NCBI GenBank assembly: GCA_013288555.1
Contig: JABDBQ010000007.1
Coordinates: 1-64,000, forward strand
DNA length: 64,000 nucleotides
Source: Bacteroidota bacterium
GTDB taxonomy: Bacteria; Bacteroidota; Bacteroidia; CAILMK01
Reading direction: 5' to 3'
The position numbers were made by a program, and so were the translations under genes. The notes under the pieces were generated by a model that made no database searches, was not told where the DNA came from, and worked only from the letters and a program-made list of their open reading frames with translations. Positions 7,024 to 16,749 of this stretch are shown piece after piece; positions within the stretch are counted from its first letter, which is position 1, and each line of letters opens with the position of its first letter.

Positions 7024-8187
7024 TTAAGCCCAGAGTTTTATTGAATCTGAAAACGTACCTGCCTGTTCTTTAATGACTTTAAACTGGCCTGTATTTTCGT
7101 GATATTGAAAGTTTATATGCGGTATTCCAGCGGCATCACAGGCTTTTTGCAATTCAGGACGATCTAGCAAAGCGGGGTCGCAAAAACTTGCGGCACTAAA
7201 TATTACGCCGTCTGCATTTCTTCTATGAACCTGTTCTACAAGACGTGCACCTTTCGGATTTCCAACATCATAAACCGATGAAGAAAAAGTGCTTTGATTA
7301 AGGAAAGCTGTAACCATTGCTTCTAATGGATCATCAGTATTGTCATCGATATCTCCAATTGTCCATCTTGATCCAAGCAATAAGTCATCATCAACAATAT
7401 AGCAGCCAGCCATCTCGATAGATTTGATCAATCCTACAGGGGGTTGTTCACAAAATGAACCATTGATAACCACCCTGATATTATCCATTGGCTCGCCCCG
7501 TTCTTTTTGTAACTGATCAAGAACCTGTTCAAGCATTTCATTGTGTTCTTCAACCGGGATTACCATACCCGCTCTCAGGATATAATAAGTTTCAAGGGCT
7601 GACAAGCGCCATGGAAATTCCTGCCTGATAGCATAAATTTCCTCGATAAGTCTTCTGTTTATATTGAAAAGTCTGATGGAATTATTCAGATCTTCAATTG
7701 AAGCATGTTGTCTATTGATTTTGCGGATGTCCTCCATCACTTTATCGAGTTCCTGTCGATAGAATATCCCGCCTACCTTAGAATTAAAATTTTGAGGGTA
7801 ATCAAAATATCTTTGAAAGTTGCCTTTGCCGGCAAGTTTGAACATGCCTGAAAGATTTCGGATACAATCGCAAGTGGCAGGGAAAACAAATCCATCAAAT
7901 TCGTTCAGACTTCCGTCGAGTCCCATTTCAATAATGCCACGTGGGAGGTGACATATATATGATTGATAATAGGCATCTCCGCGTATAATTTGTTTGCGGT
8001 CACCGGCTCCGAAAATTCCAACTGCCAATCCATTCATAGCATGAACTATTTCCCTGGGGAAATAGATGGGGAGGTACCCAACCAATACTCTGTATTCATT
8101 TTTTGATTTCCAATGCTTTGCGTATCTGAAATTTAGGTCGAATGCAAGGTTTGAACATTTATCAGTGATCTCGTTAATTGTTTCCAT
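7024..8187 (-). CDS. bcrC: Benzoyl-CoA reductase catalytic subunit BcrC (class I)
   Basis: This 387-residue protein is the first gene of the operon. Landmarks of BcrC/BadD are present: VGYLPIYFPREIVHA (36-50), RGDAYYQSYICHLPR (Cys79), CDCIRNLSGM (Cys106, Cys108), FCEQPPVGLIKSIEMAGCY, FSAASFCDPALLDRP, and the C-terminal ENTGQF...EQAGTFSDSIKLW. The cysteines would hold the [4Fe-4S] cluster of the catalytic pair with BcrB. The gene order C-B-A-D is the same as in Thauera. Upstream lie two FNR-like sites with -7 elements, giving a leader of roughly 30 nt. Ferredoxin and the ring hydratase/hydrolase genes that normally accompany bcr are not in this window. Confidence 0.95.
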   Translation of the reverse strand: METINEITDKCSNLAFDLNFRYAKHWKSKNEYRVLVGYLPIYFPREIVHAMNGLAVGIFGAGDRKQIIRGDAYYQSYICHLPRGIIEMGLDGSLNEFDGFVFPATCDCIRNLSGMFKLAGKGNFQRYFDYPQNFNSKVGGIFYRQELDKVMEDIRKINRQHASIEDLNNSIRLFNINRRLIEEIYAIRQEFPWRLSALETYYILRAGMVIPVEEHNEMLEQVLDQLQKERGEPMDNIRVVINGSFCEQPPVGLIKSIEMAGCYIVDDDLLLGSRWTIGDIDDNTDDPLEAMVTAFLNQSTFSSSVYDVGNPKGARLVEQVHRRNADGVIFSAASFCDPALLDRPELQKACDAAGIPHINFQYHENTGQFKVIKEQAGTFSDSIKLWA

Positions 8188-8223: not shown

Positions 8224-8267
8224 CAAATGAACCCACATTTATTCGCAAAAAGAATGATTCAAATCAT
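8224..8267 (-). promoter_or_regulatory. FNR-like site plus -7 element, proximal bcr promoter (P1)
   Basis: The palindrome ATGATTCAAATCAT (8254-8267) has ATGAT-N4-ATCAT form. On the minus strand the element TTCATTTG (8231-8224) resembles the Bacteroidota -7 box TAnnTTTG. The site centre (8260.5) lies 29.5 bp from the first base of the box, so near -41.5, the position used by class II FNR activators. The start site would fall about 30 nt before the bcrC ATG. The same 44-bp layout recurs at four other promoters in this window. Confidence 0.75.
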
Positions 8268-8289
8268 GTATTGCCCTGATTTAGATCAG
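8246..8289 (-). promoter_or_regulatory. FNR-like site plus -7 element, distal bcr promoter (P2)
   Basis: A second inverted repeat, CTGAT-TTAG-ATCAG (8276-8289), lies exactly 22 bp (two helical turns) upstream of the P1 site. Its own -7-like element TCTTTTTG (minus, 8253-8246) sits at the same 29.5-bp distance from the centre. This could be a second FNR-dependent promoter or a second dimer on the same DNA face that adds to activation of P1. The half-site arms extend to CCTGAT/ATCAGG (8275-8290). Confidence 0.6.
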
Positions 8290-8417
8290 GTTTATTGCTA
8301 TATTCAGAATTGGGTAGCATAACAAACAGTCCTTTAAAGCTGCTGGATTTATAGAGCTGAAGTTTGAAATAGATAGCTATTAATTTATCAATGATGTATC
8401 AATTAAGCCCCGGACAT

Positions 8418-9281
8418 TTATTGGTTTATAGATAGATTATTTTGTTTAATTATATCTTCAGAGAAGTCCCATAGCTCTTTTCCAATTCCAGGCAAATCTG
8501 CAATGGGATTATATCTGGCCTTTTTTTTTCTTACGAAATAACCGCCAGATATTTTTGTTAATTCAGGTGCCGTTGCCAGATATACAGGTGTTTCAGCTCC
8601 TTGCTCAACGGGGATATTGAACAAACATTTGATGCTCCAAAGAATCTTAAATAGTCCATTATTATCATTCATCCCAATATTTGTTACTACATCACCTGGA
8701 TGTGCTGCATTTATAGTTACGTTTGTCCCTCTAAGTCTTTTCTCAAGTTCTTTTGTAAAAATGACAGTCATTAATTTTGAATTGGAATAAGCCTGTAATC
8801 CATTGTAGATCCTGTTTCTGAAATCATAATTCCCAAGATCTATTTTACCTATTGATTGATTTCTTGAGGAGACAATTATGATTCGTCCCTGATCTGCATT
8901 CATTAGTTTAACAAGAAGAAGATTAGTAAGATAAAACGGAGCAAGAAAGTTCACGGCATAAGTCATTTCAATGCCAGCTTCATTATATTGTTTTTTTAAA
9001 AAGAAATTGCCTGCATTATTGATTAATACGTCTATGTGCCCATAAGCTTTTCCAAGATTTTCTGTGAGTTGCCTTATCTGAATCAGTGAACTCAAGTCTG
9101 CAAGAAACAAGTCTATTTTATTTGACCCTGAAATTTCTTCAATTTCTTTTTTTGCTATTTGACCGCGCTGTTCATTTCTGCAAACCATGGCTATTCGCGC
9201 ACCTTTTGTGGCTAATTGCCTGGCTATTTCTTTACCAATTCCATTACTGGCACCTGTTATTACACAAATCTTATTTTTCAT
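8418..9281 (-). CDS. Short-chain dehydrogenase/reductase, candidate 3-ketosphinganine reductase
   Basis: A 287-residue classical-to-extended SDR resembling retinol-dehydrogenase-type enzymes. It has the nucleotide motif TGASNGIGK (residues 9-17), the structural motif NNAG (about 88-91), a catalytic Ser in IIIVSSRN and the YxxxK pair in AYSNSK. It is the third gene of a minus-strand group after the serine palmitoyltransferase and a GNAT-type acyltransferase, 66 nt behind the latter. Reduction of 3-ketosphinganine is the next step after serine palmitoyltransferase, and eukaryotic enzymes for that step are SDRs. That role is inferred from context only; another lipid or alcohol substrate is possible. 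Confidence 0.8.
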   Translation of the reverse strand: MKNKICVITGASNGIGKEIARQLATKGARIAMVCRNEQRGQIAKKEIEEISGSNKIDLFLADLSSLIQIRQLTENLGKAYGHIDVLINNAGNFFLKKQYNEAGIEMTYAVNFLAPFYLTNLLLVKLMNADQGRIIIVSSRNQSIGKIDLGNYDFRNRIYNGLQAYSNSKLMTVIFTKELEKRLRGTNVTINAAHPGDVVTNIGMNDNNGLFKILWSIKCLFNIPVEQGAETPVYLATAPELTKISGGYFVRKKKARYNPIADLPGIGKELWDFSEDIIKQNNLSINQ

Positions 9282-9346
9282 TTTTCAGATAAATGCAAGG
9301 AGATCCAAAAGAACTTAAAAAGGATATAAAATACTACAAATGAGGA

Positions 9347-10462
9347 TCAGATTTGCTTTATATAGCATCTTCTGCGTTTGTGTTTTCTGCTGTCAAAATA
9401 ATTCCACAAAGACTGAACTCTTGTATTATCTTCAAGTTCATGATGAGCCTCCGCTACTTTTATTCCGCTTTGCTGGCATTGTTTGGTAAGTTCAACCATA
9501 AGTAAGGAGTTTACGCCTTTGTTCTGGTATTTTGGATGAACACCAATGAGGTACAAATCAAGTCTGTCATTTTTTTTCATTGCTTTCATCAATCTTAAAA
9601 ATCCGAATGGAAATAGCTTGCCATTAGATTTTTTGAGCGCATATGATAAACTAGGCATTGATATACCAAAGGCTACTAATTTTTTATTCTCATCAACAAC
9701 CAGTATGACAAATTCATGTCGAATAAATCCGAAATATTGTTTGATGTATGATTCTATTTGGGATTCTGTTAGTTCTGTAACCCCATAAAGATGTGCATAA
9801 GTGATATTGAGTAAATCAAAGATCTCGTGTGTATATGGCAACAGGTCTTTGCGTGATTTGGTTTTGACAACCTCTAGTTTGTATTTTGATTTAACAATTT
9901 CGGCAATGCGAGTTACTTTCTCCGGAATTTCAGTAGGTACCTGAACCTCAAATTCAATCCAGTCCGTATCTTTTTTATAATTCAACTTGTCAAAATGATC
10001 CTGGTAATAAGCATAATTATAAATCGAAGCCATATTGCCAATTTCCTCGAACCCGCTGATGAGCAGACCTTCAGGATCCATATCTGTAAAACCTAATGGA
10101 CCGTGTATTGCTGTCATTCCTAAAGACTTTGCCCAGCTTTCAACAGTTTCTGTCAACGCTTTTGAGACTTCTGGATCATCGATAAAATCAATCCAGCCAA
10201 ATCGAACATATTTATTTTTCCACTTTTCAATATAATGATGATTCGCAATCGCTGCAACACGGCCAACAATTTCATCATTTTTGTAGGCAAGCCAATACTT
10301 TGCGTCACAAAATGCAAATGCCGGGTTTTTGTTTTTGCTTAACATATTCATTTCGTCAAAAACAAGATTTGGAACCCAATACTTACTTCCTGCGTAAAGT
10401 TTGTGGGGATAGAGAATAAATTTTTTTAGGTCTGACTTGGTCTTAACTTCCTTAATTTCCAT
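9347..10462 (-). CDS. GNAT-fold N-acyltransferase, candidate bacterial ceramide synthase
   Basis: The 371-residue protein ends in a GNAT acyl-CoA-binding region: LIGVHPKYQNKGVN (about 312-325) is the V-x-P-x-x-Q-x-x-G type loop. An N-terminal half with a GPLGFTDMDPEGLL segment precedes it. This size and type of GNAT-like protein is conserved in Bacteroidota. It lies 30 nt downstream of spt, and in Caulobacter a GNAT-like acyltransferase encoded near spt was reported to act as ceramide synthase. I therefore infer N-acylation of a sphingoid base as the likely role, but orthology to the Caulobacter enzyme has not been tested. The safe annotation is GNAT-family protein. Confidence 0.75.
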   Translation of the reverse strand: MEIKEVKTKSDLKKFILYPHKLYAGSKYWVPNLVFDEMNMLSKNKNPAFAFCDAKYWLAYKNDEIVGRVAAIANHHYIEKWKNKYVRFGWIDFIDDPEVSKALTETVESWAKSLGMTAIHGPLGFTDMDPEGLLISGFEEIGNMASIYNYAYYQDHFDKLNYKKDTDWIEFEVQVPTEIPEKVTRIAEIVKSKYKLEVVKTKSRKDLLPYTHEIFDLLNITYAHLYGVTELTESQIESYIKQYFGFIRHEFVILVVDENKKLVAFGISMPSLSYALKKSNGKLFPFGFLRLMKAMKKNDRLDLYLIGVHPKYQNKGVNSLLMVELTKQCQQSGIKVAEAHHELEDNTRVQSLWNYFDSRKHKRRRCYIKQI

Positions 10463-10491
10463 GGATTGTGTAATTTGACAGGCTCAAAGAG

Positions 10492-11751
10492 CTATTCCAG
10501 AATTCCCAATTGATTAGATAAATTATAGATTATATTAATTGCTTTATCAATCTGATCTTGAGTATGGGTAGCCATGAGGCTTAATCTGATCATACAATCC
10601 TGTCTTGCTACAGCCGGCGAAGTAACAGGATTTACGAAAACACCGTTTTCAAGTAGCAATTGCGAAAGAATAAACGTTTTAGCTTCGTCCCTTATATATA
10701 TTGGAATAATGGGAGTTTCGGTTTGCCCGATTTCAAAACCGAGTTCCTTCAAACATTTTATTGTATACCATGTATTAGCCCAAAGATTTTCAATACGTTC
10801 AGGCTCATCACGCATTACATCCAAAGCCGCTATTACGCTTGCAGCATTTGCAGGAGACATACTGGCACTGAATATTAATGACCGTGCATTATGTTTTAGA
10901 TAGTCAATGGTCTGGGAGTCTGAAGCGATAAAGCCTCCTACGGAAGCCAGAGATTTACTGAATGTACCCATAATCAGGTCTACTTCATCGGTTAAGCCAA
11001 AGTGAGCTGCGGTACCTTCTCCATTTGGTCCGAATACACCAATTGAATGAGCATCATCTACCATTACATTAGCATTGTATTTCCTGGCCAGCTTTACTAT
11101 TGACGGAAGATTGGTAAGGTCTCCTTCCATACTGAAAACACCATCAACAACTATTAATTTTATGCGATCATCAGGAAGCTTTTTCAATATATTCTCTAAC
11201 GAATTCATATTGTTATGCCTGAATTTCAATGTCTTTCCAAAAGAAAGTCTACTTCCTTCTATGATAGATGCATGGTCATGCTCATCTAATAAAATATAAT
11301 CATTGCGCCCACCCAGTGCTGAAATTACACCCAGATTAACCTGGAATCCTGTACTGAATACAATAGCAGCTTCTTTTTTTACAAAATCAGCCAGTTTCTC
11401 TTCGAGTTCCATATGGATTTTGGAAGTACCATTCAGCATTCTCGATCCGGCGCAGCCAGTGCCATATTTCTCAATGGCTTTTTTTGAAGCTTCTTTGATC
11501 CTGGGATGATTAGTGAGACCCAAGTAACTGTTTGAGCCAAACATGAGGACTTTTTTTCCGTTAATTTCAACTTCGGTATCCTGTGCTGATTCAATTACTC
11601 TATAATAAGGATACACTCCGGCTCGTCTTATTTTATCTGCCTTGTCGTATGATAAAATCATTTTGTGCAAAGGACTAACACTTTTCATGGTTTCTATTTC
11701 TACGACCATTTCCCGGGTATTGTCTTTTACACGCTCCAAATAGTTATTCAT
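10492..11751 (-). CDS. spt: Serine palmitoyltransferase
   Basis: The 419-residue PLP enzyme belongs to the alpha-oxoamine synthase family and agrees closely with bacterial serine palmitoyltransferases of Sphingobacterium in segments such as VLMFGSNSYLGLT (68-80), YGTGCAGSR, DEHDHASIIEGSRLSF (stacking His160), VDDAHSIGVFG (Asp/His232-235) and GTFSKSLASVGGF (PLP-Lys266). It condenses serine with palmitoyl-CoA to 3-ketosphinganine, the committed step of sphingolipid synthesis in the cytoplasm or at the inner membrane. The N-terminus is about 25 residues longer than I recall for Sphingobacterium. Glycine C-acetyltransferase (Kbl) and BioF are the alternatives, but the CAGSRMLNGT and NHARSLIFSAS-type context favours SPT. 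An FNR-like promoter lies upstream. Confidence 0.9.
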   Translation of the reverse strand: MNNYLERVKDNTREMVVEIETMKSVSPLHKMILSYDKADKIRRAGVYPYYRVIESAQDTEVEINGKKVLMFGSNSYLGLTNHPRIKEASKKAIEKYGTGCAGSRMLNGTSKIHMELEEKLADFVKKEAAIVFSTGFQVNLGVISALGGRNDYILLDEHDHASIIEGSRLSFGKTLKFRHNNMNSLENILKKLPDDRIKLIVVDGVFSMEGDLTNLPSIVKLARKYNANVMVDDAHSIGVFGPNGEGTAAHFGLTDEVDLIMGTFSKSLASVGGFIASDSQTIDYLKHNARSLIFSASMSPANAASVIAALDVMRDEPERIENLWANTWYTIKCLKELGFEIGQTETPIIPIYIRDEAKTFILSQLLLENGVFVNPVTSPAVARQDCMIRLSLMATHTQDQIDKAINIIYNLSNQLGILE

Positions 11752-11813
11752 CTGTTTTTAAATTTGACTTAAGGATATGCTTAAGGGTCATTATCTGATC
11801 TTAAATCCAGTTG

Positions 11814-11857
11814 CAAAGTATAAATTCTTAGAAGGGACAAACCATGATTCTAATCAT
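11814..11857 (-). promoter_or_regulatory. FNR-like site and -7 element of the spt operon
   Basis: ATGATTCTAATCAT (11844-11857) gives ATGAT-N4-ATCAT. On the minus strand ATACTTTG (11821-11814) follows with TTTG exactly where the other modules have it; its first two bases depart from TAnnTTTG. The predicted start is roughly 60 nt before the spt ATG. If functional, sphingolipid base synthesis is oxygen-regulated. Confidence 0.6.
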
Positions 11858-11981
11858 CGCTGAAACTGTTTCACATCATAAAAAAATGAAGAATATAAAA
11901 ATTGATTATTATTATTAAAAGAGCAAATAGCTTGACTGAAATCAATTTGATTCCGGTAGTTCGGCTAATTATTTTCAAAAC

Positions 11982-12025
11982 ATGATTTAAATCATGTTAT
12001 TTACCTTACTACCCATATAATTTTG
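11982..12025 (+). promoter_or_regulatory. FNR-like site and -7 element of the queD-fnr operon
   Basis: ATGATTTAAATCAT (11982-11995) is the core of a perfect 20-bp palindrome spanning 11979-11998. TAATTTTG (12018-12025) is an exact TAnnTTTG element starting 29.5 bp from the palindrome centre. Because the regulator gene is the second gene of the operon, this would be an autoregulatory promoter. It leaves a leader of about 100 nt before queD. Confidence 0.75.
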
Positions 12026-12070
12026 CGGATGTCATATCCATTTCAGGAATAGGATAATAAGGACGTGACA

Positions 12071-12121
12071 ATGGATAAAATCAAAAAAATGATTTGCGGT
12101 AGAACATCAATGGATATATAA
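12071..12121 (+). CDS. Possible leader ORF upstream of queD (16 codons)
   Basis: An ATG-started reading frame MDKIKKMICGRTSMDI ends in TAA at 12119-12121, twelve bases before the queD start, inside the predicted leader of the FNR-controlled transcript. It may be chance, or a short translated leader that helps the weak TTG start of queD. There is no homology evidence. Confidence 0.2.
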   Translation: MDKIKKMICGRTSMDI

Positions 12122-12132
12122 AATTTCACTTT

Positions 12133-12585
12133 TTGAACCATATAAGCATAACAAAGATTTTCAGTTTTGAAGCTGCACACGCTTTAAGAGATTATGATGG
12201 ACCTTGCCGCAGTATCCATGGGCATTCTTATAAATTATGGGTTACAATTAAAGGTGAAGTTGATCCTAAATCAGGAATGATTCTTGATTTTGGTGATTTG
12301 AAAAGAATTGTGAATGAGGTAATTATATTTAGATTTGATCATAGCCTGATTCTAAATGAAGAAGATGAAAAAACAAATCTTAAGTCTGGTACTTTATTAG
12401 ATAATCTTGAGGTATTGCCGTTCAATCCATCATCTGAAAATCTGGTGGTTTATTTTTCTGATCTGTTAAGAGCTGCATTGCCTGATAAAATTGAGCTTCA
12501 TAGCCTTAAATTATATGAAACGGAAACCTCTTTTACGGAATGGTATGCGGGGATTGATCATAAAATGGAAAGTTTTAAAAATTAA
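12133..12585 (+). CDS. queD: 6-carboxy-tetrahydropterin synthase / 6-pyruvoyl-tetrahydropterin synthase family (QueD)
   Basis: A 150-residue PTPS-fold protein. Zinc ligands His16 (FEAAHAL), His29 and His31 (IHGHSY) and the QueD-type catalytic Cys25 in CRSIHGH are visible, and the C-terminal LYETETSFTEW carries the substrate-anchoring Glu. QueD turns dihydroneopterin triphosphate into 6-carboxytetrahydropterin for queuosine; tgt, the later enzyme of that path, is at 57.7 kb. The start is a TTG: an in-frame stop at 12100-12102 with no ATG after it leaves no better option. The gene lies 11 nt upstream of the FNR-type regulator gene and shares its promoter. Confidence 0.85.
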   Translation: MNHISITKIFSFEAAHALRDYDGPCRSIHGHSYKLWVTIKGEVDPKSGMILDFGDLKRIVNEVIIFRFDHSLILNEEDEKTNLKSGTLLDNLEVLPFNPSSENLVVYFSDLLRAALPDKIELHSLKLYETETSFTEWYAGIDHKMESFKN

Positions 12586-12596
12586 GTTATAATAAA

Positions 12597-13307
12597 ATGT
12601 CTAATAGAATTGCATTTCCGAATTGCGTAGATTGCAATATGAGGCGGGGTTCAATATTTTGCAACCTAAGTACAACAGAAGTTGAAAAACTGGATTACCT
12701 GAAAGATGCCAGCCTGTACCGAAAGGGTCAGGTTGTTTTCCAGGAAGGCACCCACCCCAAAGGTATTTATTGTGTCTTTTCAGGGAAAGTGAAAATATTT
12801 AAACTCGGTCCCGGTTATAAAGAACAGATTGTGCGCTTGGCCAGATCCGGAGATGTTCTCGGATACCGTTCCCTGTTATGTCATGACAGATATCGTGCTT
12901 CCGCAGCAGCAATAGAAGATTCAGTTATCTGCTCTATTCCGCATGAACAGTTTTTTAAAATATTGGACGACAATGCCCTTCTTTCCAATAACCTGATGAA
13001 ATTGTTGAGTCAGGATCTGGCCATCGCAGAAAAGAAAATGGTAGATATGATGCAAAAGCCTGTTAGAGAACGTATGGCAGAGGGACTGATCTTATTAAAA
13101 GAAATGTTTGGATTTACAGAGGATGGTAAAACGCTAAATATTACAATGACGCGTGAAGATATAGCAAGTTTCATTGGCACTACTGCTGAAACTGCTATAA
13201 GAACTTTATCAGATTTTAATTCTGAGCGCATTATTTGCCTGGATAAAAAAGAAATCAGGATTGAAAATTTTGCAAGGCTTTTGCACGAAAGCCATATCAA
13301 CGACTAG
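12597..13307 (+). CDS. FNR-type Crp-family regulator with four cluster-ligand cysteines
   Basis: The 236-residue protein has the Crp/Fnr plan: N-terminal cysteine motif, cNMP-type sensor barrel (about 28-120), dimer helix (about 121-150) and winged HTH (about 155-225). Cys10, Cys13 and Cys22 (C-x2-C-x8-C) with Cys112 in SVICSIPHEQF match the E. coli FNR ligands Cys20, Cys23, Cys29 and Cys122, so an oxygen-labile [4Fe-4S] cluster is likely. In the recognition helix (TTAETAIRTL) Glu198 and Arg202 correspond to FNR Glu209 and Arg213, but Ser212 is replaced by Ile201. It is the probable reader of the ATGAT-N4-ATCAT sites around it, including that of its own operon. Confidence 0.88.
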   Translation: MSNRIAFPNCVDCNMRRGSIFCNLSTTEVEKLDYLKDASLYRKGQVVFQEGTHPKGIYCVFSGKVKIFKLGPGYKEQIVRLARSGDVLGYRSLLCHDRYRASAAAIEDSVICSIPHEQFFKILDDNALLSNNLMKLLSQDLAIAEKKMVDMMQKPVRERMAEGLILLKEMFGFTEDGKTLNITMTREDIASFIGTTAETAIRTLSDFNSERIICLDKKEIRIENFARLLHESHIND

Positions 13308-13429
13308 CTCAAAAAGTCCGTTTTGAATACCGATTAAAGCCAAAAAAGGCAAAGATTTACATTGGTTTCAAAAATCACAATCGTTTTAGTTATAAGAACG
13401 TGATTTGTTAATACATATCATTTTATGAT

Positions 13430-13473
13430 ATGATGGGGATCATGGTTTAAGCCTTTAAATGCCTTTACTTTTG
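13430..13473 (+). promoter_or_regulatory. FNR-like site and -7 element of the truncated FNR-like gene
   Basis: ATGATGGGGATCAT (13430-13443) is followed by TACTTTTG (13466-13473), an exact TAnnTTTG element at the shared 29.5-bp distance. The start site would be near 13478-13480, giving a leader of about 15 nt before the GTG at 13493. Confidence 0.7.
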
Positions 13474-13492
13474 ATCATTATTTGTATCACAA

Positions 13493-13951
13493 GTGAAAAG
13501 CGAATATACTCATAGCAGTTGCGCCAAATGTAAGGCATACCATCAATCCATTTTTTGCACGTTGGCAAAAGATAAGTGGATCAATAAGAAGAAAGTCAAA
13601 TTTGAAAAGAGTGACATTCTTTACGCCGAAAATGAATTGATTAAAGGTTTATTTTGCATCAAAACGGGACAGGTTGCTCTTATGAAGAGAGATATGATGA
13701 ATTCCGATCGGATCATCGGAATTATTCGTCCGGGTGAAATACCTGGGGCTGCATCATTATTACGGCCGGCTCAAAGATATACTACTTCTGCACAGGCTAT
13801 TCAGACTGTCGAAGCCTGTTTTATCAGAAAGACGGATATGCTACTCCTGATTAATTACAATCCAAAAATTGCGATTAATTTTCTTAAAATGCTGGCTGAA
13901 AAACTTTCTGATCAGGAGCCTTATCTGAGGCAGTCTATATTAAGTCACTAA
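13493..13951 (+). CDS. FNR-like sensor and dimer-helix protein lacking the HTH domain
   Basis: This 152-residue protein keeps the FNR sensor part but stops before any DNA-binding domain. Cys10, Cys13, Cys22 (again C-x2-C-x8-C) and Cys109 (TVEACFIRK) align with the four ligand cysteines of the neighbouring full-length FNR homologue. A cNMP-type barrel follows, then a terminal helix (about 122-150) that corresponds to the dimer interface. Only 80 nt separate its stop from nadA, and I saw no HTH-like continuation, so this is not a simple frameshift. It starts with GTG. It may form heterodimers with the full regulator and damp its activity, or act as a separate redox sensor; this is inference. 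Confidence 0.8.
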   Translation: MKSEYTHSSCAKCKAYHQSIFCTLAKDKWINKKKVKFEKSDILYAENELIKGLFCIKTGQVALMKRDMMNSDRIIGIIRPGEIPGAASLLRPAQRYTTSAQAIQTVEACFIRKTDMLLLINYNPKIAINFLKMLAEKLSDQEPYLRQSILSH

Positions 13952-13954
13952 AAC

Positions 13955-13998
13955 ATGATTTGAATCATGAAATTCGGGGTAATTGAGGGGTAATTTCG
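13955..13998 (+). promoter_or_regulatory. FNR-like site and -7 element of nadAB
   Basis: ATGATTTGAATCAT (13955-13968, flanked to CATG...CATG) is followed by TAATTTCG (13991-13998), one base off TAnnTTTG, at the common 29.5-bp distance. The inferred start near 14003 leaves about 30 nt before the nadA ATG. Confidence 0.7.
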
Positions 13999-14031
13999 TG
14001 AGAAAATTAACCTTTTATCAAGTTACGGAAG

Positions 14032-15096
14032 ATGAATTTAATGAGCCCGGCAATAAAAAGTAACCAAAATGCAGCACTAAAATATAGGGATCGTATTAAA
14101 AGTATGACCAATCAATATGGTAATGCTTATCTGGAATCAATAGTGCCGATTGTAAATGAAATCAGGCAGTTAAAAAAAGAAAAAAATGCCGTGGTTCTTT
14201 CCCACTATTATATGTCACCTTTGTTACAGATATCAGAGGATCAGGGTGGTATTTCTGATTTTGTAGGAGATTCACTAGGGCTTAGCCTGGAAGCAAAGAA
14301 TGTGAAAGCCGATAATATCGTTTTTTGTGGTGTCACTTTTATGGCTGAGACGGCATATATATTGAACCCGAAGAAAAATGTGTATATACCCGATATGGAT
14401 GCAGGCTGTTCATTGGCATCAAGTATTACCGCTGCAGATGTTGAAAAGCTAAGATTAGAATACCCGGGGATTCCTGTTATAGCTTATATCAATACCTATG
14501 CTGAAACAAAAGCGGTTTGTGATATCTGTTGTACATCGAGGAATGCTGTAAAGATTGCTTCTTCTTTCGATTCCGACAAAATTATTTTTATCCCGGATAA
14601 ATTCATGGGAAAAAATCTCTCAAATAGTTTTAAATCAGCATTGAATAAAGATTTTATCATATGGAATGGCAGGTGTGAAGTGCACGAACAGTTTTTAGAA
14701 AATATTGATAGCCTTATGACAACATACCCTGCTGCTGAAGTGTTATTGCACTGGGAGGTTCCTGATACAACTGTTGATATGGCTTTAGCAAAAGGGCATG
14801 GAATTGTTGGAAGTACCGCTGATCTGATAAAACATGTCCAGGATACAGATATCAAACAGTTTATTCTTGCTTCAGAATGTGATCTTGGTGCCACCATGAA
14901 GGGTATGTTTAAAGATAAGCAATTTATAACACCTTGTATAACTTGTAATTATATGAAAAAAATAAATCTTCAAAACACATTGGATACGCTAAGAGCCATA
15001 GGAACCGAAGATGAATATAAGTATATGATTTCATTAGATCCTTCAATTATGGAAAAAGCCGCAATACCTATTAATAAAATGATTGAAATGAGCTAA
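14032..15096 (+). CDS. nadA: Quinolinate synthase NadA
   Basis: The 354-residue protein is a [4Fe-4S] quinolinate synthase that condenses iminoaspartate with dihydroxyacetone phosphate. Cluster cysteines are placed in VFCGVTFMAE (Cys99), CDICCTSRNA (Cys163-167) and PCITCNYM (Cys302/305). HYY near residue 58-60 and SECDLG near 281 are typical substrate-site segments. It is followed by nadB 66 nt downstream and preceded by an FNR-like promoter; the enzyme's cluster is oxygen-sensitive, which fits such control. nadC is not in the window. A second in-frame ATG at 14041 is possible, but 14032 is used. Confidence 0.95.
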   Translation: MNLMSPAIKSNQNAALKYRDRIKSMTNQYGNAYLESIVPIVNEIRQLKKEKNAVVLSHYYMSPLLQISEDQGGISDFVGDSLGLSLEAKNVKADNIVFCGVTFMAETAYILNPKKNVYIPDMDAGCSLASSITAADVEKLRLEYPGIPVIAYINTYAETKAVCDICCTSRNAVKIASSFDSDKIIFIPDKFMGKNLSNSFKSALNKDFIIWNGRCEVHEQFLENIDSLMTTYPAAEVLLHWEVPDTTVDMALAKGHGIVGSTADLIKHVQDTDIKQFILASECDLGATMKGMFKDKQFITPCITCNYMKKINLQNTLDTLRAIGTEDEYKYMISLDPSIMEKAAIPINKMIEMS

Positions 15097-15162: not shown

Positions 15163-16749
15163 ATGGACGCCCCGGATTTTCTAATAATAGGCAGCGGGAT
15201 AGCCGGATTGTCATTTGCTTTAAAAGCTTCGCAACTTGGCAATGTTATTATTGTTACAAAAAATATTGCCAGTGAAACCAATACAAGAATGGCCCAAGGA
15301 GGAATCGCTTGTGTAATGAACAATGATGATAACCTTGAACTCCACGTAAAAGACACTCTCGAAGCGGGAGCGGGGCTGTGCGATGAAAATGCTGTTCGTA
15401 CTATGGTGTCGGAAGCAAGAAAATGCATTGACGAATTAATTGAAATAGGTGTATCTTTTTCAGGATCGGTCGATAAAATGGATCTTGGACTTGAAGGCGG
15501 ACATACTAGAAACAGGATAGCACATGTGAAAGACTTTACCGGCCGTGAAGTTGAAAAAGCACTTTTGGCAGCAGTCAGAAAAAATCCAGACATAACAATT
15601 CTTGAAAATCATATGGCAATTGATCTCATTGTTACAGGTGAGAAAAATAAAAGATCCTGTCTGGGAGTAGAAATATTAAATGAGAAAACGGGGGAGATTC
15701 AATCTATATATTCTTATAAGACAATTTTATGTACCGGTGGAGCAGGGCAGGTTTATCAACATACTACCAATCCGGCAATTGCAACAGGTGATGGTTTAGC
15801 AATGGCATACAGGTCAGGCGCAAAAATAAAAGATATGGAATTTGTACAATTCCATCCTACTGCTTTATACTTTCCAGAAAAGCCAGTTTTTTTAATTAGC
15901 GAAGCCTTAAGAGGTGCAGGCGCTATTCTTAGAAATAAATGGGGTGTTTCATTTATGGAAAAATATCATCCCCTTGCTTCTCTGGCGCCAAGAGATATTA
16001 CTTCACGTGCTATAATAAATGAAATGCGGGATTCTGATAGCGATCATGTTTCCCTTGATGCAACACATATTCAGGCTCAACATCTTATAAGCTTGTTCCC
16101 CAATATTTATGAGAATTGTTTGAATCTTGGAATAGATATTACTGTAGACCAGATACCTGTGGTCCCTTCAGCGCATTTTATGTGTGGAGGGATCGCTACG
16201 GATATCAATGGTCGCACAAATATTAATTCGTTATACGCCTTTGGTGAAGTTGCGTGTACAGGAGTTCATGGTGCAAACAGACTCGCGAGTAATTCACTTC
16301 TTGAAGCAATGGTTTTTTCTAACAGGGCCTTTTTAGACATAAACCTGCATTGGAAAGAAAATCAGTTGTCTAATCCTTTTCCTGGCAAAGAAAAGCACAC
16401 TAATTCTCAAGGGAATAAGAAACCTGAGATAAATAAGATAAATAATTTACTTCAGGATATCAGGCAATTAATGAGTCAATATGCAGGAATTTTAAGGCTC
16501 CCGCATGAAATGGAATATGCGTTTGAAAAGTTAATGGCACTTGAGTCAGAAGCAAAAGATTTATTTCTCCAATCCAAAAATACCAAAGAGGTTATTGAAT
16601 TATACAATATAGCCATTACAGCGCGATTAATTCTTACAGCAGCCATTAGAAGAAAAATAAGTATAGGGGCACATTATTTAGAGCATATACCCTTTCAGGC
16701 TGATTTTAAGATTGATCATATTCATGCTGCCTCCATCGAAGTCAGGTAG
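15163..16749 (+). CDS. nadB: L-aspartate oxidase NadB
   Basis: The 528-residue flavoprotein of the succinate dehydrogenase/fumarate reductase family starts with the FAD motif IIGSGIAGLS (residues 8-17) and has RMAQGGIA, EFVQFHPTAL, the APRDI active-site segment and GANRLASNSLLEA. It oxidises aspartate to iminoaspartate for NadA; it can use oxygen or fumarate as electron acceptor, so it can serve anaerobic growth. It is co-transcribed with nadA judging from the short gap. The C-terminal helical domain (about 420-528) is complete. Confidence 0.95.
   Translation: MDAPDFLIIGSGIAGLSFALKASQLGNVIIVTKNIASETNTRMAQGGIACVMNNDDNLELHVKDTLEAGAGLCDENAVRTMVSEARKCIDELIEIGVSFSGSVDKMDLGLEGGHTRNRIAHVKDFTGREVEKALLAAVRKNPDITILENHMAIDLIVTGEKNKRSCLGVEILNEKTGEIQSIYSYKTILCTGGAGQVYQHTTNPAIATGDGLAMAYRSGAKIKDMEFVQFHPTALYFPEKPVFLISEALRGAGAILRNKWGVSFMEKYHPLASLAPRDITSRAIINEMRDSDSDHVSLDATHIQAQHLISLFPNIYENCLNLGIDITVDQIPVVPSAHFMCGGIATDINGRTNINSLYAFGEVACTGVHGANRLASNSLLEAMVFSNRAFLDINLHWKENQLSNPFPGKEKHTNSQGNKKPEINKINNLLQDIRQLMSQYAGILRLPHEMEYAFEKLMALESEAKDLFLQSKNTKEVIELYNIAITARLILTAAIRRKISIGAHYLEHIPFQADFKIDHIHAASIEVR

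Follow-up and report, generated by a model that had tools for sequence, protein, structure and literature searches.

An FNR-type protein without a DNA-binding domain encoded behind fnr in a Bacteroidota genome

FNR is the textbook oxygen switch, and we know of no natural FNR that has kept its sensor but lost its DNA reader; a search of the accessible literature likewise found no natural FNR with the sensor but without the DNA-binding part. Within the wider family, a natural Bacteroidota CRP protein that lacks the HTH and has a phenotype is already published: deletion of CrpR1a in Riemerella anatipestifer has a phenotype, and the gene had formerly been taken for a pseudogene in some strains (PMC13277301). 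Systems with two FNR proteins are known as well. For FnrN and FixK of Sphingopyxis granuli, the authors of the study propose inefficient heterodimers as a means of auto-modulation (PMC7713065). Here we analyse a short FNR-like gene in a stretch of 64,000 nucleotides (the window) from a Bacteroidota bacterium, and compare it with these systems.

Anatomy of the short protein and its neighbours

The short gene is situated between a full-length fnr gene (fnr1) and nadA. Coordinates of the genes, and of the parts of the short gene discussed below, are as follows.

12133..12585, + strand: queD-like 6-pyruvoyl tetrahydropterin synthase (Pfam PTPS), 11 bp upstream of fnr1
12597..13307, + strand: full-length FNR (fnr1), 236 aa, with C-x2-C-x8-C (Pfam cNMP_binding, HTH_Crp_2 and Crp)
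13493..13951, + strand: HTH-less FNR2-type protein, 152 aa, GTG start (open reading frame, Pfam and AF2 fold)
13520..13558, + strand: codons of Cys10, Cys13 and Cys22 (C-x2-C-x8-C), predicted cluster ligands (alignment A1, family motif)
13817..13819, + strand: codon of Cys109, predicted fourth ligand (invariant column; aligns with A. fischeri FNR)
13862..13945, + strand: predicted dimer (C) helix, residues 124-151 (AF2/DSSP), interrupted by Pro143 (13919-13921)
14032..15096, + strand: nadA, quinolinate synthase, downstream of the short gene (Pfam NadA, E 3.2e-91)
15163..16749, + strand: nadB-like FAD protein, L-aspartate oxidase by context (Pfam FAD_binding_2, Succ_DH_flav_C)

The genes queD and fnr1 probably belong to the same operon, and FNR1 scores 104.5 bits against the NCBIfam Fnr model, below its 228-bit cut-off. 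In a genome of the same family (G001, locus L036), a NorB-like oxidase gene precedes nadA-nadB instead of the fnr genes.

The sole Pfam match of the short protein is cNMP_binding (PF00027, E 3.7e-14), and the HTH profile that gives 118 bits on the neighbouring fnr1 finds no HTH in any of the six frames of 13301-14100. The stop codon coincides with the domain hinge and is followed by 80 bp to nadA. As in CrpR1a, a CRP domain is present and the HTH is absent from the open reading frame; the overlapping downstream small frame that encodes an HTH in the CrpR1a layout is absent here. The first-pass annotation had the product ending before the HTH, which these searches bear out, and had looked to a missed frameshift restoring the HTH as the counter-evidence. 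With no HTH similarity in six frames and nadA so soon after the stop, such a frameshift is very unlikely. As encoded, the protein cannot act on DNA in the manner of a classical regulator. Codon usage in frame 0 of the short gene is coding-like (+0.13 bits per codon, vs -0.12 to -0.44 across the remaining five), and no Rfam elements were found around it.

The AF2 model of the short protein consists of a beta-roll and the long helix 124-151 (mean pLDDT 82, lower at the helix end), and matches CRP/FNR structures in the PDB, including A. fischeri FNR; the single-domain cNMP protein 3mdp is also among the fold matches. The dimer helix, described earlier as kept, is predicted for most of its length, with L131, L134, L138 and L145 as retained hydrophobic positions, but it is interrupted by a proline found at that position in only one of 196 homologues, namely the short protein itself.

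The four putative cluster cysteines, which the same annotation had picked out as sharing the neighbour's spacing, are upheld by alignment. The spacing C10-x2-C13-x8-C22 is identical in FNR1 (CVDC-x8-C), and CxxCx8C recurs in about 15 fetched full-length homologues, mostly ending in SIFC, SVFC or SMFC. C109 is invariant in the 20-row alignment A1, and its profile column aligns with the cysteine of SMVCEIP in A. fischeri FNR; C109 thus stands at the position of the established fourth cluster ligand of FNR. All five conserved cysteines are kept in the short protein, against 15 of the 40 other positions conserved in FNR1, and the chance of such retention, calculated by hand as C(20,5)/C(45,5), is about 0.013. 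This pattern shows that the ligands were under selection while the protein diverged, though not necessarily once the HTH had gone. The short protein may bind a [4Fe-4S] cluster via the four kept ligands.

FNR-type promoters in the window and the genome

The following FNR-like sites and promoter elements were found around the short gene and its neighbours.

8254..8267, - strand: FNR-like palindrome upstream of the HGD-D dehydratase gene (7024-8187)
11844..11857, - strand: FNR-like palindrome upstream of the PLP enzyme gene (10492-11751)
11982..12025, + strand: perfect composite class II promoter of queD-fnr1, ATGATTTAAATCAT, then TAATTTTG
13430..13443, + strand: FNR-like palindrome ATGATGGGGATCAT upstream of the short gene, an exact match and part of a perfect composite promoter
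13466..13473, + strand: -7 element TACTTTTG (TAnnTTTG) of the short gene, 23 bp after the palindrome core (consensus from PMC9723704)
13955..13998, + strand: palindrome ATGATTTGAATCAT and TAATTTCG (one mismatch), between the short gene and nadA

Exact ATGAT-N4-ATCAT palindromes occur five times in the window vs 0.39 expected, all of them intergenic and all within 8254-13968 (5.7 kb), where they precede the HGD-D gene, the PLP enzyme gene, queD-fnr1, the short gene and nadA. There are zero exact TTGAT-N4-ATCAA sites in the window. Genome-wide, the bare ATGAT-N4-ATCAT palindrome is not enriched (19 vs about 17 expected). The composite TGAT-N4-ATCA-N23-TAnnTTTG, whose TAnnTTTG part is the flavobacterial -7 box of sigma-A (PMC9723704), has five perfect copies in 2.84 Mb vs 0.21 expected, and two of the five are the promoters of queD-fnr1 and of the short gene. 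Other perfect copies precede the gene for an XDH-like [2Fe-2S] protein and a hemerythrin gene, the latter divergent from pyruvate:ferredoxin oxidoreductase, and further perfect or near-perfect composites precede genes for a radical SAM protein and a NorC-like cytochrome. Together, the genes behind composite promoters look like an anaerobic regulon that includes the short gene, and the palindrome with its -7 box offers a concrete promoter rule for the FNR regulon of this genome.

If transcription starts about 6 bp after the -7 box, the centre of the palindrome lies near -42, the class II position. The FNR-like site claimed earlier for the short gene is thus confirmed, complete with its -7 box. 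Since the short gene and the fnr operon have a common FNR-type promoter, control of the short gene by FNR1 (a feedback topology) is plausible, and we infer that FNR1 itself binds the palindromes of the composite promoters.

Two further observations concern the palindromes themselves. Their cluster from 8254 to 13968 looks like a local anaerobic regulon, and a palindrome CTGATTTAGATCAG at 8276-8289, next to that at 8254 and likewise ahead of the HGD-D gene, is a possible tandem FNR site.

Tandem fnr loci and the descent of the short protein

A collection scan with a second alignment (A2), less diverse than A1, yielded 80 GTDB loci of CxxC FNR from Bacteroidota, Ignavibacteria and Calditrichota, of which 26 carry a further CRP-family reading frame, nearly always directly downstream and on the same strand; in many of these tandem fnr1-fnr2 loci, a TGAT-N4-ATCA palindrome separates both genes. 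The short gene of the window fits the fnr2 position, being on the same strand as fnr1, directly downstream of it and behind an FNR-like palindrome. Only one of the 26 tandem loci (in genome G173) is cleanly without an HTH.

Two other loci are unusual in their own right. In 'Chlorobi bacterium OLB5' (Ignavibacteria-type; L193, 3336-4029), fnr2 is split into a cNMP frame and an HTH frame in another reading frame, and is either a real pseudogene or a sequencing error. A Bacteroidota locus (palsa_971; L226, 2450-4930) has three CxxC-type FNR genes in tandem.

Orthologues of the same length beside fnr were the check proposed in the first-pass annotation, which had tied its reading to conservation outside this genome. 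None was found in 40 relatives, in 12 genomes of the same order or among the matches listed for 395 Bacteroidia genomes, and single-protein scans of GTDB contigs and IMG/VR gave no close relative. By the annotation's own standard this lack of conservation speaks against its reading, although close relatives of the source genome, a MAG (67.5% complete), are barely sampled and two other genomes do carry HTH-less FNR paralogues. Identity of the short protein is 27% to the neighbouring FNR1 and 31-34% to some FNRs of other families (34% best).

HTH-less FNR paralogues were seen in two other genomes. That of G173 (JAEUTH010000008.1; L107, 1892-5890) lies in the order fnr, palindrome, 136-aa HTH-less protein, palindrome, cytochrome c, nosZ, the same layout as in the window: full-length fnr, palindrome, HTH-less gene, palindrome. 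Of the three N-terminal cysteines only one survives in this protein, most of its dimer helix is missing, and it looks like a product of decay. The other, a 169-aa protein in G096 with CxxCx5C and the late cysteine, adjoins moeA; in G014 and G187, of the same genus, the protein is full-length and retains its HTH. Neither HTH-less protein was found in further genomes of its family or order.

To place the short protein, we generated a maximum likelihood tree of 55 rows comprising fnr1, fnr2 and HTH-less proteins. The short protein sits on a long branch outside the FNR1 clade, within a set containing fnr2 proteins (99/96). By the AU test, none of the following placements is rejected: as sister of the neighbouring fnr1 (p 0.17; lnL 19.5 lower when both are held together), inside the FNR1 set (p 0.30) or as a pair with the G173 protein (p 0.38). 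A common origin of all three HTH-less proteins is rejected (AU p 0.022); as they do not form one clade, the HTH has been lost at least twice. Because the window protein occupies the fnr2 position, descent from an fnr2, with loss of the HTH, is the best reading. The truncated copy of the neighbour implied by the first-pass annotation is the less likely origin on the tree, though the AU tests do not reject it. The recurrence of the fnr1-site-fnr2 locus across FCB phyla, together with recurrent HTH loss, suggests a two-tier anaerobic regulatory module.

Interpretation and comparison with known systems

Anatomy, absence of the HTH, promoter architecture and recurrent gene order are demonstrated, as far as sequence analysis goes. 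Taking anatomy, regulation and descent together, we consider it probable that the short protein is an HTH-less fnr2. It would then be an fnr2-type CRP/FNR protein, the second regulator behind a CxxCx8C FNR, whose DNA-binding domain was lost in a clean break at the hinge. From the class II FNR-type form of its promoter, expression is expected at low oxygen, under which FNR1 is active. The kept ligands would hold an oxygen- or NO-labile [4Fe-4S] cluster. With four ligands and most of the dimer helix kept, any function would be exerted through protein-protein contact, the simplest case being negative feedback, in which the short protein pairs with FNR1 and removes it from DNA. Whether the protein still functions in some way we judge to be evenly balanced. 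Constraint on the gene is suggested by its open frame, coding-like codons, perfect promoter and full set of conserved cysteines; against our best reading stand Pro143, a tree resting on long branches and an occurrence private to this genome. Given the proline, the long branch and the private occurrence, an oxygen-tunable dominant-negative brake, in which an FNR-activated, HTH-less fnr2 derivative titrates FNR1 into inactive heterodimers, is possible, but we regard it as rather unlikely. The first-pass interpretation, which included such heterodimers, is supported in part: for the kept ligands, the missing HTH and the FNR-type promoter, but not for the pairing. An HTH-less FNR beside fnr1 and behind an FNR-like site nevertheless makes a simple, testable feedback circuit.

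The descent from fnr2 may also have ended in a decaying remnant, where a recent deletion removed the HTH and the frame is still open but the protein inactive. Such decay has a substantial chance of being correct, if somewhat short of even: the short protein is private to this genome in our sampling and has a unique proline and a long branch, its G173 analogue is degenerate, the fnr2 of L193 is split, and few of the fetched homologues are without an HTH. A perfect promoter, all cluster ligands, an open frame, coding-like codon usage and a stop at the domain hinge are harder to reconcile with it. Descent from fnr1 itself, as a truncated tandem duplicate, would account for the adjacency and the shared CxxCx8C-SIFC motif, and the AU test does not reject a sister relation (p 0.17), but we find it doubtful: identity to the neighbour is below that to some FNRs of other families, and the tree places the protein in the fnr2 set at a likelihood cost if the two are held together.

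Other alternatives concern what the protein does, or whether it is real. A standalone single-domain cluster or redox sensor, acting as a homodimer or with a partner other than FNR1, has structural precedent in single-domain cNMP proteins (3mdp), and HTH-less CrpR1a has a deletion phenotype (PMC13277301). We consider this unlikely, since no partner gene is evident, nadA and nadB being metabolic and having their own site. An assembly or sequencing error hiding the HTH is conceivable on a MAG contig from an incomplete genome, but is very improbable, for the six frames contain no HTH and the gap before nadA is too small for a domain of roughly 70 aa.

An HTH-less fnr2 thus remains our preferred reading, and it can be set against the described systems. 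With E. coli and A. fischeri FNR the short protein shares the beta-roll sensor, CxxC and a third N-terminal cysteine, a late cysteine at the SMVC position and the C-helix, as well as an FNR-type palindrome at the class II position. It differs in lacking the HTH, in the proline of its dimer helix and in its third cysteine, which follows after 8 residues rather than 5; the half-site is ATGAT in the window and TTGAT in the E. coli and A. fischeri system. CrpR1a is likewise a Bacteroidota CRP/FNR-family protein without an HTH, with recurrent HTH gain or loss and a reported function. There, however, the HTH persists on an overlapping downstream small frame, its loss being due to a frameshift, whereas in the window it is wholly gone; cluster cysteines and FNR control are not among the features given in the accessible text (PMC13277301). 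FnrN and FixK of Sphingopyxis granuli resemble the window in being two cluster-type FNR proteins, but both have an HTH (PMC7713065). An fnr2 with an HTH and, as a rule, no N-terminal cysteine motif sets the tandem loci of Ignavibacteria, Calditrichota and Bacteroidota (L171-L241) apart from the short protein's locus; the arrangement is nonetheless that of the window, with a CxxC FNR followed by a CRP-family gene and often a palindrome between them.
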